This document shows positions 4,256 through 49,050 of a stretch of 64,000 nucleotides of DNA, in pieces. Below the pieces are notes generated by a model. The model searched no databases and had not been told where the DNA came from. It saw only the letters and a list, made by a program, of their open reading frames with translations. The DNA is from Branchiostoma floridae (Eukaryota > Chordata > Leptocardii > Amphioxiformes > Branchiostomatidae): positions 9,160,469 through 9,224,468 of the forward strand of contig NC_049994.1 in assembly GCF_000003815.2 (NCBI RefSeq), read 5' to 3'. A program made the translations under genes and the position numbers. Numbering within the stretch: the stretch's first letter is position 1; every line of letters starts with the position of its first letter.

Positions 4256-4702
4256 TCACTTCAATAAACTATCCCAAGTACAAGAAAGCTCAGTTCTCAA
4301 CCCACCCCTACGGTTAAGCGAAGGACGATGAATCCGCTCATAAATTGCCTCCCTTACCCCCCTCTCAAACCAGCGAGATTCTCTGTCTAAGATGTCTGTA
4401 GTATCTAAGGAGAATGAATGATCGTTGTGAATGTTCAGATGATGCCAAATGGCCGATGAAAACTTGCTAGTACTCCCCCTACAATGCTGCTTGTACCTTT
4501 CCTTCAGGGGCTGACTTGTTTCACCAATGTAAGTCTCTAAACAATTCGGGTCATTGCATTTCAGTCTGTAAATGACATTAGACCTAATATTCTTGTTAAC
4601 TTTGTCCTTTGGGTGCACCAGTCTCTGTTTCAACGTTGAATAGGGTTTGAAATTTGTGGCGATGTCTTGACTTTGTAGGATCCGTCTTATCTTTTCTGAC
4701 AC
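4256..4702 (-). pseudogene. GIY-YIG endonuclease domain of a Penelope-like element (truncated ORF)
   Basis: This 148-residue frame is the C-terminal part of a Penelope-type polyprotein. It shows a paired-cysteine motif (CNDPNC), then TYIGETSQPLKERYKQH, which carries the YIG signature and the conserved arginine. Further on it has REAIYERIHRPSLNRRGG, with the catalytic-type glutamate and the LNR motif typical of these endonucleases. The domain nicks target DNA to prime retrotransposition. The reverse transcriptase that normally precedes it is absent because the element is truncated on its 5' side, so the frame cannot be autonomous. No frameshift is seen in the remaining part, which suggests a fairly recent insertion. 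Confidence 0.85.
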
Positions 4703-4786
4703 ACCTTGAACGTAAGGAATTGTGATGTTGACTGTCTTAGTTTTTGTCCTTGTTTCAAGAAATTGTTTGTCTTCATTTTCTTTTCA

Positions 4787-34594: not shown

Positions 34595-36887
34595 ATGGAC
34601 ACCAGGTTTGGCACGCTGTGCACTGCTGTGGTGTTTGCTGTGTTCGTACGCTGGGCAGTCTCGCTGAACTCCTACTCGGGCATGGGGAAACCTCCGATGT
34701 ACGGGGACTACGAGGCACAGAGACACTGGATGGAGATCACCACCAGCCTCCCCCTCAAGCAATGGTGAGTTCCGTCTGTGTTTAAGGAGAGCCACACCTT
34801 GACTTAAGCACGTTAAAGAACCCAGCATATACATATATATGTACTAAGTATATATATTGCCTCCTTCGGTCAATATTGACTATGGTAAAATCCTACAGCG
34901 TTGACTGTGGCTAAACAGTCCTATACGAGAATGACAGTCTCTGCCACATAAGGCACATCTGTAAGCTGACTCAGGTCTGTTGCAGAGTTCTTCACACAAT
35001 ACTCGATAAGGGTCCATCTCTATGTGAGTGGATCAAGTAAATCTGCCCGGATTTGCAGTTTGTACTCTTCAGTAGAACCCTGGTTTCTTGCGCCATGAGC
35101 CGGAAATCTGGCAAGCCAGAATGCAGCCAACTTGGGTTGATCCATCTAGCAAATAGACATTTAGGTAACCAAAAAACAAACAAAACAAAGACGAATCATT
35201 TTGCAGTGATGTATGCCAAACATGTGGATGAAGTCACGTGTGCATATGTTATAGGCATTCCCATTCCAAACCTCAGGTCATTTGGTTTCAAAATTCAATA
35301 CCACAGGATCCAAAAATATATTTTCCATATATATTTCAGAGAAGAGAAGCAACAAAATTGCCATCAAATTGATTCGTGGCAGACATTGAATGCCTCCTTA
35401 TCTGTACTTATTTAGAATACATCCAACTACATGTGTGCAAGATTTAGTGCTTTTAGATAAATGTCACTTCACAATCTTTCAGCTATGCCACTTGACAATT
35501 TTTCCATGTTTTTGTTTTTGCTAGGTATTTCAATGGCACAGACAATGACCTTCTGTACTGGGGTCTGGACTACCCACCGCTGACTGCCTACCACATGTGG
35601 CTGTGCGGAAAGGTTGCCGGATGGATCAACCCCGATTGGACAGCCCTCTTCGCATCCCACGGATACGAGAGCTACGAGCATAAACTTTTCATGAGATACT
35701 CTGTGCTGATAGGAGATATCGTCATTTACATCCCTGCTGTTTTGCTGTATTGTTTCCTGCAGAAGAAGTTAAGCCACCTACAGAAGGTGCTACTGAGCTG
35801 TGTGTTGCTGCTATTTCCAGGCTTGATCATTATTGACTATGGACATTTCCAGTACAATAGTATTAGTCTAGGTCTAACGTTGTGGGCTGTGATAGCAATA
35901 AGTCATGGGCATGAAGTGATAGGTTCAGCTGCATTCATGCTTGCTTTATGCTACAAGCAGATGTCTCTCTATCATGCCATGCCATTCTTCTGCTACCTAC
36001 TGGGAAAGTGTTGGGAACAAAGGTGGAAGAAGGGTTTTGTTTCCCTCTGCTGTATTGGTGTAAGTGTGTTGGCAACATTCACCTTTGTGTGGCTCCCTTT
36101 TCTCACTGAGAAAGATCTCTTCCTCCAAGTCGTTCACAGAATCTTCCCCGTCGCTCGTGGTGTGTTTGAGGACAAGGTTTCTAACTTCTGGTGTAGTTTG
36201 TCAGTTGTTGTGAAGTTTCGTAATTTTATGTCCCAGGAAGGCCTTTTGTCATTATGCCTCGCTACAACTCTTCTCGGCCTAGTACCATCCTCTCTGGACC
36301 TCCTATTCCGTCCTTCCATCGCCAAGTTCAAGCTAGCCCTCGTAAACAGTTCTCTGGTTTTCTTCCTATTTTCCTTTCAAGTCCACGAGAAATCCATCCT
36401 CCTCCCAGCCCTCCCTGTCTGCCTCTTGTTGCCATGGCGACCGTTCACCTCCACCTGGTTCCTCACCATAGCAACCTTCAGCATGCTTCCCCTGTTGATC
36501 AAGGACGGCCTCGTCATCGCCACCCTTGTAACCTCTGTACTCTTCATCATAGCTGTTGAGTTAGGGCTACAAGGGGTATCTTCTGATCCAACGATTGGCT
36601 GTCCTGTATGCATGTGGTCCTCTAAAAATCTTCCCTGGCTCCCTCATAGGATGTTTTTCTATGTGGTGAAGTCAGCATTTTATGCTTCTCTCATGGGGGC
36701 TCTTTTCCTGGGTCTGTTAAGTGTTGTCATCCCCCCGCCCTCCTCACTACCAGATCTTTGGCCTGTGTTGATATCTGTGTACAGCTGTTTGCACTTCATA
36801 GGTTTTACCCTGTATTACCACATAGTACAACTCATGGCCCCTGGTGCTAAAGAAACAACAGCACAGAAGGCAAAGAAGACGCAGTAA
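34595..36887 (+). CDS. ALG6: Dolichyl pyrophosphate Man9GlcNAc2 alpha-1,3-glucosyltransferase
   Basis: This ER-membrane GT-C glycosyltransferase adds the first glucose from dolichyl-phosphate-glucose to the lipid-linked Man9GlcNAc2 precursor of N-glycans. Two coding exons, 34595-34764 and 35525-36887, join in frame (TG plus G gives Trp57) to 510 residues; the human protein is 507. The protein begins with a hydrophobic segment, then [21 protein letters not shown], with an Asp-containing first luminal loop. Next come [39 protein letters not shown] and the [10 protein letters not shown] motif. Many further hydrophobic helices and a Lys-rich tail ending KAKKTQ follow. I chose the start in CACCATGGAC; an ATG at 34541 is upstream of the likely acceptor. 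The rest of the protein is one large exon. Its 3' flank has a diverged second copy at about 51.5-52.5 kb. Confidence 0.96.
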
Positions 36888-38851: not shown

Positions 38852-41197
38852 TTAAAGCTCAATGCGTTGCTGTTGCTGCTGCTGTTGGCCTTTCTCCTTA
38901 TAGTCGAACTCGTATGTGGGAGAGGCGTTGGGACCTCCTGGATAGATGGGTGTCTGCACGAGTTGGATGCCTTTCTTCTTAAGATCTACCATCTTATCAT
39001 CGGCGCAATCTGGCTTCAGCTTCTCCGGGTGTCCGTTCAGAGCATCGTGTAGGCACTGCATGACATCCACGTAGACTTTATTGAAGTCGTCTGACAGCTT
39101 CCTTGCCTCGGATCCAGGAGGGTACAGATCGGTGCTGGGGTTGGAGATGATTGGCCACACGTCGTTCTCATCGAAGGGCACTTGCGGTCCGTTGAAGGTA
39201 ATGTCGTTCTCACAGTTCTTGCCATCGCAAGGGGAAAAGTAATCGTGGCACCACGGGTCTCTCGCCCGGCAAGGTTTGCCTCCATACTCCACCGCCTTAC
39301 CGTGGACGATCTCGGCAAACTTGAAGTAGTGAGACGGTACATTCTTCTTATTGTTTTCCGCGAACTGGTCATCAACATAAGGGTTGCAAGCATCTCCGCC
39401 CTCCCCTTGGGAAATGATGAAGGCAATAGCTCTGATAGCCGTGGTAAGGTTGCTGACTTTGAAGGGAATCGAAACTTGACGCCCGGGATCTCCTGTGAAT
39501 ATGGTACCTTCGGGGCTTCCTTGTGCTTGTATCTCCAGCTTATACATGGGGCAGAGAATCTTGTGGATGTAGATCGCACCTATGGTGTCTGGGCTATAGC
39601 CCTCTTCGTCACATTTAGCCAAGAGTCCGGGAAAAGCGTCTTCCACCTTTTCAGACATTTTGTTGGACGCTTGTAGATCTGGGGATGCCGCTTTTGAGAG
39701 GTGATCATGAAATTTCGTGACGGAGTCTTCGCATTCGGGCGTTTCGATTCCCATGAAGACCCTTTCCGTGTGAGCCCTCGTCATCTTCTCCAGCGTCACG
39801 TTGAGGTCGGGGAGGCAGCCAGCGGGGAGGGGTCCCGGGTACCGCGGTGCTTTGGCTGCGTTCAGCACGGGCTTTCCCTTTATGGCGTTCAGCATGTTGG
39901 CCGCCAGCGCCATGTGATCCATCTCGTTCCCCAAGATGCTCCACAGTATACCATTCACCGGCTTGTTTGTGCCTTCCTTGATGCTGAGGGCAGCGTTCAG
40001 ATACGGAGGGATGGTGGCCCACTCCAGCTCTATGGCGCTTTGCAGGTTTTCCCTCAGCTTTTCTATCGTTACCCTGTCTGTGCCTGCGACACAAATGATG
40101 CAAGAGTTTGAGAATCATGCCTCCGTAAAATATCTTAAGTGTCTCGTATGTCTTCTTCAGTTTGAGTACATTAATTGTGATTTGATTTGATTAACATCAG
40201 GCCACATTGACTTAATTTTATTGATGACATCCTTTGGAGACCAAAACTAATGCGCGAGTTAAAAAAAAAAGAGAAAACCCAGCAAAAATTCTGCTAAACC
40301 GCAGAAGTAACATCTGGTCCATTTTTCCAGGTTTGGTTTGTCTTATGTTCACCTCCAGTAAGACTGCAAGAGACAATCGTCGCCATTTCAATAATGCTTT
40401 TTATTGCCATTCTTGTTTAAAGAGGGAACAAGGGCGCTGTGTCCCCATGCCCTGACCATTTGTCCCCTTACCTTGGAGAGTAGATCCTCTGGTAAACATA
40501 AAATTATGATTGACCAGGGATGCTATTTGGTTACAGTGCTGGTCACAGTTTTTTAGAACAGGCAAAAATCAGTGCGCGTGCGGATGTTATCCATAAAATT
40601 AAGTCAGTGTGGCCTTGCATGTATCCATTGATCACATCCTGTTACTCCACGGTGAACGTGACTGACATATGGAAAATATGTCACTTGCGTCAACAGACAC
40701 AAATACAGACCAAAAATACTTCCCTGCGAACTAGTAGCCTCTTTCATTGACCCTTACCTAGAAACCTAGAATGGCTGGCATGTCTGATAAATGACTAGTT
40801 CTACCACCTCTGAATTCTTCTTCCTGTCACACCCGCAAGTATGATCATTACCGTGACGCCATCTGTCTACTCATTGCCTACTATTCTACTGACAGTGTTT
40901 ACAAATACACTATGAACACACAAGAAGACACACATCCAGACACACCGAAAACAAACCTTCCGTACACGGAGGCAAATATGGATTAGAAAAGCGACGTATG
41001 ACATATCTGTTTCGTCACAGGTTTCAAGGGACTTGATGCCAGATTTTGCCTTCATTCCAGCTCATGTAATATATGTAGTATGCCCAACACAACTCTATTT
41101 AGACCGGGCTTTGTAAATCTTCTATACCTTGAGCGGAGACATCCGGCCATCCCGAGAAAAGACACGAAAGTGCCAGGAAGACTGTGAAGATTGCCAT
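38852..41197 (-). CDS. Secreted ferritin-like protein of the iminophenyl-pyruvate dimer synthase (VioB/RebD-like) family
   Basis: Two exons on the - strand, 41197-41128 and 40083-38852, join in frame to 433 residues. Exon 1 is almost exactly a signal peptide (MAIFTVFLALSCLFSGWPD then VSAQ). The rest resembles the ferritin-like domain of VioB/RebD-type proteins: AIELEWATIPPYL with E44, the helix NEMDHMALAANMLNAIKGKP with E77 and H80 as likely metal ligands, and SHYFKFAEIVHGK. A C-terminal helix, FNKVYVDVMQCLHDAL, follows. Several N-x-S/T sites (NVT, NLT, NAS) and many cysteines suit a secreted glycoprotein. The C-terminus has seven glutamines before RIEL. In bacteria, relatives act in indole-alkaloid pathways; the animal substrate is unknown. 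One very large exon with an intron only after the signal peptide, in a neighbourhood of multi-exon genes, hints at acquisition from a microbe. Confidence 0.82.
40463..40550 (+). repeat. Dispersed ~90-bp repeat, second copy
   Basis: CCCCTTACCTTGGAGAG, then CATAAAATTATGATTGACC and AGGGATGCTA, and a CTGGTCACAG end match the copy at 7664-7755 in the same orientation. It lies in the intron of the ferritin-like gene. Confidence 0.6.
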
Positions 41198-46408: not shown

Positions 46409-47790
46409 GACCGTCAACAAAAGTCGCACGGCGGCTAACGGCGCAGCGAAGATACTAGCGCTATAAATAAGCGCTTCAACTAAGGATGGCAACCCGTACA
46501 ATATTTTTGTATACTGTTGAGCTAAGTAAAGTTTGTTGTTTATGAGGTTTTAGTTGTCTTTGAAGCTTTGACCCGAAATATTTTAAAGTCAAACTGCTGA
46601 AGAGAAGTAAGTGACTGCTACGATTATCGTAGATATGGCCCTAAAAAAACTGATAAAAGAAGCCTTCTCAATAGCCTAAAATGTAAGAGCTTCCGGGGGG
46701 GCTTCGCCCACCTGGGTCCCCCCCACAGTGGCCCTGCCCCTGGACCCCGCCAGGGACATTCGGCGGCCCCCGGACCCCTGTCCGACGCTTTGAAAAAATC
46801 CTGGCGAGAAGTCTGTACGGCCTGAGTCTTCAAGTTAACGTATTGTGTGGTCCCGCTTATGAATATTAATTAGCCTTCGCTTTCCTCTTCGCTGATTGGC
46901 TGAACCATTAATTGAATTAACTCTTCCTGCCGGCTAGACGCAGGTGCAGATGTCGGCTCTGTGGGGTGAACGTCCGAAAGGTCACGGCATGGAGAACGAA
47001 AGAAAACCAATTTCCCCTAAAAAAAGTGCTGTAATTAAGCCTTTTACAGTACTTTATGCCAAAAATTTTACTTGGATCATTTTACCAACTATATTATGCC
47101 TATCTATACCAAATGTTACTCATACCAGGGTACAGGGGTGCAAAATATACCGTTATAAGACCGTCAACAACAGTCGCACGGAGCTAACAGCGCAGCGAAA
47201 ATACCATCGCTAGCGTTTCAACTTCGGATAACAAGTTATAAGTACTGTTGAACTCAGTAACGTTAAAGTTTGTTTTTAGTTGCCTTTGACGGTTTGACCT
47301 GAAACAGTGTTACGCTAAACTCCTGAAGAGAAGTTAAGTGACTGCTGCGATTATCATAGATATGCCCCTAAGAACTGATACAATATAAAGCCTTCTGAAT
47401 AGTCTAAAATGCGAGAGCCTTAGGCGGGCTTTGCTCCCCCTGGCGGGAACACTGCTATATACGGGATCATGAGGCCCCGCTTATGAATATTAATTAGCCT
47501 TTGGCCTCCTCTTCGCTGATTGGCTAGGTCTTTGATTCAATTAACTCTCCGGCTGACGCGCACAGGTGTGGCTCTGTGCGGGGTCACGGAAGGTCACGTC
47601 AGGAGGCCAAAAGAAAACAAATTTCCCCTCAGAAAAGTGCCAAAATTAATCATTTTAAAGTTGTTTATGTCAAAAATTTTACTTGAATCTTGTTACCAAG
47701 TATCTAATGCCTATCTATACCAAATTTCAGGTCATTTAATTGTAATACCAGGGTACAGGAGCCAAAAGTGTCCTTTTTTGGTCAAAAATT
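46409..47790 (+). repeat. ~750-bp tandem duplication
   Basis: Unit 1 (46409-47158) and unit 2 (47159 onward) share GACCGTCAACAA, GTCGCACGG, GAAGAGAAGT, AGTGACTGCT, TATGAATATTAATTAGCC, CTTCGCTGATTGGCT, TTTCCCCT and ATGCCTATCTATACCAAAT in the same order. The family ends where the 162-bp array begins, and unit 1 ends with a partial array unit (ATACCAGGGTACAGG). Confidence 0.8.
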
Positions 47791-48290
47791 GGCCAAAAAT
47801 CGCAAAAATAAGCATTTTGTTGCACTGTACACCAAAAGTGTTATTGAATTTATATGAAGGGATTATCAAGGCACATCTGTGTCAAATTTCAGCTCATTCG
47901 GTTGCAATACCAAGGTACAGGAGCCAAAAGTGTCCTTTTTTGGTCAAAAATTGGTCAAAAAATCGCAAAAATAAGCATTTTGTTGTACTGTACACCAAAA
48001 GTGTTCTTAAATTTATATGGGGGCATTATCAAGGCACATCTCTGTCAAATTTCAGCTCATTTGGTTGTAATACCAGGGTACAGGGGCCAAAAGTGTCCTT
48101 TTTTGGTCAAAAATTGGTCAAAAAATCGCAAAAATAAGCATTTTGTTGTACTGTACACCAAAACTGATATTGAATCTATATGGGGGACTTATCAAGGCAC
48201 ATCTGTGCCAAATTTCAGCTCATTCGGTTATAATACCAGGGTACAGGGGGCCCAAATATACAGTTTTGGTCTTAAGATGACCAAAAAACC
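47700..48290 (+). repeat. 162-163-bp tandem array, about 3.5 units
   Basis: The word GGTACAGG recurs at 47752, 47914, 48077 and 48239, with spacings of 162, 163 and 162. Each unit holds CAAATTTCAGCTCATT, GTGTCCTTTTTTGGTCAAAA, AAAATAAGCATTTTGTTG and ACTGTACACCAAAA. Because one spacing is not a multiple of three, the long apparent reading frame at 47520-48137 is a by-product. Confidence 0.9.
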
Positions 48291-48804
48291 TTAATAAAAT
48301 CATTTAAGAGACAGATATGGAAAAAATGAAAAAAACGCCCGAGGGTATTGGCCCACTCTTCCCTTGTGCCAAATTTCAAGTCATTCGGTTGAGGAACAAC
48401 GGAGATACCGTGTTCTGAAGATTTGACAGGAGAAAGAAACATTACGAATACAATATATTTCACCATACCTATGGTATGGCTGAAATATAAAAATATGTAG
48501 CAACATTTAACAACCGTATGAAGTATCTAAATTAGAATTTTGTGATCACCCGTGAGACGTTTATCCCCTATAAAAATTGACCTTTCCAATTTTTACCGGC
48601 TACGCTCAGTTCTATTTTACTATTTCTAGATATCAAGTTGATATTCCTTAGTTAGCAATTGCTAGCTGTGTAGCTACATCGGTAGTATAGCTAGGAATTT
48701 GGGTTTCATCCCCTGGCTGGTCGTCAAGGGTGCAACTCGACATGAAGACCTACCTGTTGCTGGCGGAGCTCTTGGCGGTCGGAACATCGCCAGCTGCAGC
48801 GGAC

Positions 48805-49050
48805 GTTCCTGGACGGTCTTCGGTTGGGCAGTCGACCGACGCAGCCATTCTCTCATATTCAACTTTAATTAACATTTTTTTTTTAAATATTTGCGTATAT
48901 GTTCAAGTTCTGTTGTTCTTAAATAACGTTCCTGGACGGTCTTCGGTTGGGCAGTCGACCGACGCAGCCATACTCTCATATTCAACTTTAATTAACATTT
49001 TTTTTTTAAATATTTGCGTATATGTTCAAGTTCTGTTGTTCTTAAATAAC
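48805..49050 (+). repeat. 123-bp exact-looking tandem duplication
   Basis: The units 48805-48927 and 48928-49050 differ at hardly any position (CCATTCTC versus CCATACTC). Both run from GTTCCTGGACGGTC to CTTAAATAAC. The flanks at 48700-48804 and 49095-49240 are themselves diverged copies of one ~150-bp sequence with GGGTGCAACTC and GGAACATCGCCA, so the duplication sits in an older repeat. Confidence 0.9.

Follow-up and report, generated by a model that had tools for sequence, protein, structure and literature searches.

The window analysed here, a stretch of 64,000 nucleotides from Branchiostoma floridae, carries on its reverse strand a two-exon gene (Table 1) that is confirmed as a real gene and that encodes a ferritin-like protein. 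The intron runs in phase 1 from a CAAG/GTATAG donor (intron from 41127) to a TTTGTGTCGCAG/GCA acceptor (exon 2 from 40083), and exon 2 holds a single PF12902 domain (Pfam; E 5.7e-43, 147.8 bits against a curated cut-off of 22.3 bits). The strength of this match, together with the presence of 15 further family loci in the same genome, indicates that exon 2 is not open by chance. An earlier note on this DNA had proposed a 433-residue frame with a signal peptide, and this reading is borne out: the splice sites fit, and the signal peptide is shared by three paralogues (L016, L018 and L019) and partly by a fourth (L015). The three N-glycosylation sequons (N-X-S/T) that it mentioned are found at N118, N235 and N409, and the protein contains 11 cysteines.

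Table 1. Features of the ferritin-like gene, in window positions
Feature	Position	Strand	Details or evidence
Gene	38852-41197	-	2 exons, 433 aa; ATG at 41197
Exon 1: start codon and signal peptide MAIFTVFLALSCLFSGWPDVSAQ, phase-1 donor	41128..41197	-	Signal-exon counterparts in L016, L018, L019, partly L015
Phase-1 GT-AG intron	40084..41127	-	Splice-site reading
Exon 2: whole mature protein and stop, PF12902 ferritin-like (F) domain	38852..40083	-	Open frame, Pfam
E44, presumed metal ligand	40022..40024	-	Invariant in 64/64 rows
E77-M-D-H80 (ExxH), presumed ligands E77 and H80	39914..39925	-	Both invariant in 64/64 rows
E251 of GEG motif, presumed metal ligand	39401..39403	-	Invariant in 64/64 rows
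H275 of SHYxxF motif, presumed metal ligand	39329..39331	-	Invariant in 64/64 rows
C-terminal RIEL, KDEL-like tail, after poly-Q run	38855..38866	-	C-terminal comparison

Elsewhere in the window, two tandem arrays were observed at 47721-48247 (period 163, 3.2 copies, 91% matches), underlying long open frames at 47520-48294, and at 48803-49050 (period 123, 2.0 copies, 99% matches). On the minus strand, a 175-aa open frame at 4256-4783 contains IYRLKCNDPNCLETYIGETSQPLKERYKQH and resembles what we take to be the GIY-YIG end of a retroelement. A 463-aa open frame on the plus strand (35496-36887), which adjoins the ferritin-like gene, presumably resembles an ALG8-type glucosyltransferase.

A PF12902 profile search of the amphioxus genome returned 17 matches, all of them over the cut-off, at 16 loci on seven contigs, with the last two matches being adjacent pieces of one locus. 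Eleven of these loci, on contigs C1, C5, C7, C10, C13 and C16, are long genes in which an N domain is followed by the F domain in every case (11/11). The remaining five are short genes with the F domain only, comprising the window gene, three genes on the same contig (9.24-9.30 Mb) and L015, whose 23.8 kb contig is the one exception to the 19-35 Mb contigs that hold 15 of the 16 loci. The bulk of the long form (the rest of N plus F) is encoded in one giant exon which, read from its candidate acceptor, is open to the end in six genes (L009, L010, L011, L012, L017 and L020; 871-973 codons); the other five of the 11 are irregular. In L014 the last piece is detached and lies in a separate frame, in L013 codon 15 of the giant exon is an in-frame stop, and the giant exons of L022, L023 and L024 change frame internally; for the latter four genes, decay, small introns, alleles and assembly error were not told apart. 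The long paralogues share only 40-52% identity with L009, which argues that the amphioxus family is not recent, and among the five short genes dN/dS ranges from 0.33 to 0.62, the upper value suggesting that they are constrained but loosely. The short-gene cluster also includes a broken extra copy, a piece of F domain that matches profile positions 235-362 over two frames and lies upstream of the L019 gene at L019:14-516 (G000:C16, about 9285513-9286015). No naming of these amphioxus genes was found in the open-access literature searched, and among papers on amphioxus and gene transfer the word 'ferritin' is absent from PMC12373286.

The assignment of the gene in the earlier note to a VioB/RebD-type ferritin-like family is backed by both the Pfam match and profile alignment to VioB. 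The family profile aligns nearly end to end with VioB of Chromobacterium subtsugae (hhalign probability 99.9, E 8e-33, 802 columns), and the F domain alone aligns with it at E 8e-16. VioB, the iminophenyl-pyruvate dimer synthase, is collinear with the long form, but their identity is only 17%. Against the VioB equivalog model (TIGR04492, NCBIfam; cut-off 1250 bits) the window protein has no match at E up to 0.1, and the two long forms tested score 18.3 (L009) and 13.9 bits (L013); the window protein was accordingly rejected as a VioB equivalog. The combination of an end-to-end profile alignment with the failed cut-off indicates that the long form has the VioB architecture without being VioB. 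By these profile matches, the amphioxus genome holds a family of VioB-related members of which the window gene is a short one, corresponding to the C-terminal half of a VioB-type architecture. Unlike VioB, the window gene has the F domain only, the whole N half of the VioB/RebD architecture being absent, and no relic of the N domain was found in its intron or upstream of the four short paralogues. The closest solved structure by sequence is PDB 3HL1 ('Ferritin like protein'; profile E 8e-25), which is presumably a Caulobacter protein and is followed by bacterioferritins; the match spans the LExxTIP, EMxH and GEG motifs but covers profile positions 5-204 of 337 only, and the listed record names no function.

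Ferritin-like carboxylate proteins generally activate O2 or peroxide at a site with two metals, and RebD and VioB couple oxidised tryptophan units. The Glu, Glu-x-x-His, Glu, His set of the PF12902 family is present in the window protein, in which E44, E77 and H80 are as the earlier note claimed and E251 and H275 complete the set in a 64-row F-domain alignment (13 of 16 animal and 51 of 85 bacterial rows). The same five residues occur at aligned positions in VioB, as judged by profile alignment. Given this conservation pattern, we consider that the window protein probably binds two metal ions, themselves probably iron, through E44, E77, H80, E251 and H275. By analogy, it may possibly employ O2 or peroxide in oxidising or coupling a small metabolite, perhaps an aromatic one, a reading that we put forward tentatively. 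The passages of PMC10784701 on RebD and StaD hold no metal-site data.

Relatives of the long form are found in bacteria both as one protein and as two. A tblastn search with the long L009 protein against plasmids identified pairs of neighbouring genes in Aureibacter, Azospirillum, Mycetohabitans and Gloeothece, with L009 being 26.0-31.9% identical to the plasmid N proteins (n = 4; 501-526 columns) and 29.5-33.2% identical to the plasmid F proteins (n = 5; 421-428 columns). A scan of prokaryote genomes yielded at least 549 confirmed relatives, and a bacterial set of 85 loci was compiled from the best 80 of these and five plasmid loci. This set (best 80 of at least 549, plus five plasmid loci) comprises 13 fused N+F genes, 48 split adjacent pairs and 22 F genes alone; one of the 22 (L034) is truncated by its contig end. 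Two further loci were set apart: L046 is an N fragment, and L060 has F alone along with a second pair. The family is rare in bacteria: the L009 protein has matches at E 1e-20 in 3 of 100 Pseudomonadota and, at E 1e-40, in 4 of 195 Myxococcota, 2 of 296 Bacteroidota, 3 of 297 Acidobacteriota, 1 of 346 Actinomycetota and 1 of 339 Cyanobacteriota; each count includes the seed genome.

The 13 fused 'ferritin-like' proteins among the best matches come from Undibacterium (L030 and L031), Myxococcaceae (L035), Acidobacteria (L043, L049, L061 and L070), Chitinophaga (L036) and others. Like the amphioxus long form, they have N and F in that order in one chain, with 33-40% identity in matched segments where these were called, and like the animal genes they have the same five ligand residues in the aligned rows; unlike them, they have no signal exon and 0-4 cysteines in F, against 10-17 in animals. 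The split pairs, as in Aureibacter, Mycetohabitans, Flavobacterium and Chromobacterium, have the same two domains but as two proteins, and they often lie by ebo genes, with Gloeothece having two ebo genes only. All five ebo genes tested are present at 12 of the 85 loci (ten split, two fused) and at least three at 14 of 85, in flanks of 5-7 kb of which some are cut by contig ends and in a set made up of the best 80 of at least 549 relatives and five plasmid loci; the five genes lie alongside the fused L030 and L031. PMC6282210 reports that a scytonemin precursor is exported by the ebo cluster, and that a Pseudomonas cluster containing ebo deters nematodes. No shared partner was detected in ten neighbour frames, five of them without a Pfam match, at five loci, of which four are fused and the fifth (L093) is F-only and adjoins a GMC oxidoreductase. 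A second, distant N-domain protein (L079:9335-11155; 39 bits, profile 1-562) adjoins the Nitrospirillum N+F pair.

An F-domain tree was built from 100 rows, comprising the 85 bacterial loci (80 of them the best of at least 549), 14 of the 16 animal genes (L022 and L024 were left out) and VioB. In this tree the animal genes form one clade (100) beside the 13 fused bacterial genes (87 SH-aLRT), and the latter form one clade (97) although the fusion state is absent from the data. A second tree, based on N+F and unrooted, contains 68 rows (48 split, 13 fused and seven of the 11 long animal genes, with L014, L022, L023 and L024 left out and L013 taken from after its stop), and recovers the animals at 100/100, the fused bacterial genes at 98/92 and a 99/98 branch that separates animals plus the 13 fused from the 48 split. 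The animal branch is long, at 0.83, and midpoint rooting places the root there. When VioB serves as outgroup, the animals sit four nodes inside bacteria (supports 71, 85, 80 and 98), which we regard as a weak hint because the VioB branch is long (6.5), its placing is unsure and support at the outer nodes is 71-85. Forcing the animals together with the 13-row Bacteroidota split clade, an alternative picked after the tree was seen, was rejected (lnL lower by 14.2, p-AU 0.008). The sisterhood of amphioxus genes to bacteria may reflect a sampling effect, since the eukaryote rows come from one genome.

The animal genes have a host-type setting, with large contigs, phase-1 introns and signal exons. 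The bacterial N proteins start with MSYLxxPRLxFSG and have no signal peptide apparent by eye. In amphioxus, signal exons with phase-1 donors were identified in four long genes (L013, L020, L022 and L023) and in three short ones (the window gene, L016 and L019), with a low-complexity candidate for L009 and, by similarity, counterparts in L018 and partly in L015; a crude scan found none at the other six long loci. The first part of N (N1) occupies a separate exon at ten of the 11 long loci, L011 being the exception; its acceptor and donor are both phase 1 in 10/10 such exons, and a candidate phase-1 acceptor precedes the giant exon in 11/11. Cysteine density is 3.07 per 100 aa in the animal proteins versus 0.50 in the bacterial ones, and the aligned rows have 10-17 F-domain cysteines in 13 of the 16 animal genes versus 0-4 in 51 of the 85 bacterial genes. 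Eight alignment columns (141, 181, 256, 302, 309, 314, 367 and 383) are Cys in 13/13 animal rows and, except for column 383 (2/51), in 0/51 bacterial rows, a pattern of animal-specific cysteines that would fit an oxidising compartment. The proposal in the earlier note that a microbial gene had captured a secretion exon is thus supported across the family by signal exons and phase-1 introns, with the amendment that the form originally captured was probably the long two-domain one and the window gene a later, shortened one.

How the family reached amphioxus can be weighed against these results. The horizontal origin suggested in the earlier note agrees with the trees, which place the animal genes beside fused bacteria, and is qualified by the sampling of a single eukaryotic genome: a wider eukaryotic spread is conceivable, and fungi carry PF12902 genes, described beside lodA/lodB in PMC4417212. 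A family old in eukaryotes, or acquired via fungi, and lost from most lineages while amphioxus kept it would account for those fungal genes, for the long amphioxus branch, on which the unrooted tree permits a root, and for long paralogues that are only 40-52% identical to L009. Like the amphioxus genes, the fungal ones are eukaryotic, but they adjoin quinoprotein oxidase genes (PMC4417212). We hold this account to be unlikely, as nearly the whole protein lies in one exon despite an intron-rich host genome, and the nearest rows, among the matches listed, come from bacteria whose proteins are fused in the same way. The idea that the fungal partner LodA was transferred along with the family was dropped, the amphioxus genome having no LodA_C match in a profile search. 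Another report places PF12902 in Schistosoma vesicles (PMC7563238), where the domain count may be loosely named, and was hence set aside. That the relatives outside animals are bacterial could also suggest contamination of the assembly; since contigs of 19-35 Mb carry 15 of the 16 loci, and since the genes have spliceosomal introns, animal-only cysteines and signal exons, its probability is practically negligible. A phage or virus origin was dropped as well, the window protein having no match in phage records and none of 67 pattern stretches on viral contigs being relatives. A lateral origin of the amphioxus family is therefore the likely one on present sequence evidence, and we consider the entry of a fused bacterial gene into the amphioxus lineage to be quite probable.

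The location and role of the window protein admit further alternatives. Behind a variable Q-rich run, four of the five short proteins end in KDEL-like tails, namely RIEL (window), RIEL (L016), RNEL (L018) and HIEL (L015), versus none of the 11 long forms; L019 is the short form without one. HXEL tails are functional ER retrieval signals in carboxylesterases, including the HIEL of human CES1, according to PMC5818367 and PMC4676782. The window protein combines a signal peptide with RIEL, and L015 has a tail identical to the HIEL reported as functional, retrieval by RIEL itself being putative. The distribution of tails makes the earlier label 'secreted' doubtful for this copy and suggests an ER-lumenal protein instead; residence in the ER lumen is the reading we lean towards, while 'secreted' would suit the long forms better. 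True secretion, with RIEL a chance tail, remains the less favored reading but one of some weight: the protein has a signal peptide, three sequons and eleven cysteines, and a tail of this kind is absent from L019 and from the long forms, of which at least four have clear signal exons. Against it, the last residues are preserved behind variable poly-Q in four of the short genes; one of these is the diverged L015, whose HIEL is reported to be functional in human CES1 (sources as above). As to role, the window protein might not be an enzyme at all; it could be a secretory protein that holds metal or plays a structural part, such as a defence factor that binds iron, with the old site serving only to hold the iron. 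The absence of the N domain from the short form, the clustered copies and a dN/dS of up to 0.62 would suit such a fast-changing non-catalytic role, as would a genome without the LodA partner, but the five ligand residues are invariant in 64/64 rows, and F genes without an adjacent N also occur in bacteria, accounting for 22 of the 85 loci (L034, truncated by its contig end, among them; best 80 of at least 549 plus five plasmid loci). We judge this role improbable.

The explanation that we favor on balance, taken whole, is that a bacterial-type fused N+F protein of the wider VioB-related superfamily gave rise to an amphioxus family, with the window gene among its short members. Its directly supported parts, as read from gene and protein comparisons, are the homology, the collinearity, the fusion of the nearest bacterial rows, the expansion, the phase-1 signal exon, the animal-only cysteines and the conserved ligand residues. 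A fused bacterial gene would have entered the lineage, acquired disulphides and a signal exon, and given rise to many copies, after which one branch would have shed the N domain, retained the domain with the metal site and added a KDEL-like tail. A more far-reaching version, which we offer as speculative and rather unlikely in its entirety, is that a chordate took up a fused VioB-related bacterial gene and turned it into some 16 secretory-pathway metal proteins with new disulphides, in which secreted two-domain and ER-resident one-domain forms keep the bacterial-type oxidative chemistry and provide the animal with a metabolite pathway of its own. Enzymes related to bisindole synthases are usually thought of as microbial. 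With a cysteine-rich family of sixteen loci in a chordate, an animal would be running such chemistry, or reusing its metal site, inside the secretory pathway, and the family would also offer a case of a bacterial fused gene becoming an animal secretory gene through a signal exon, phase-1 introns, cysteines, domain loss and an ER tail.
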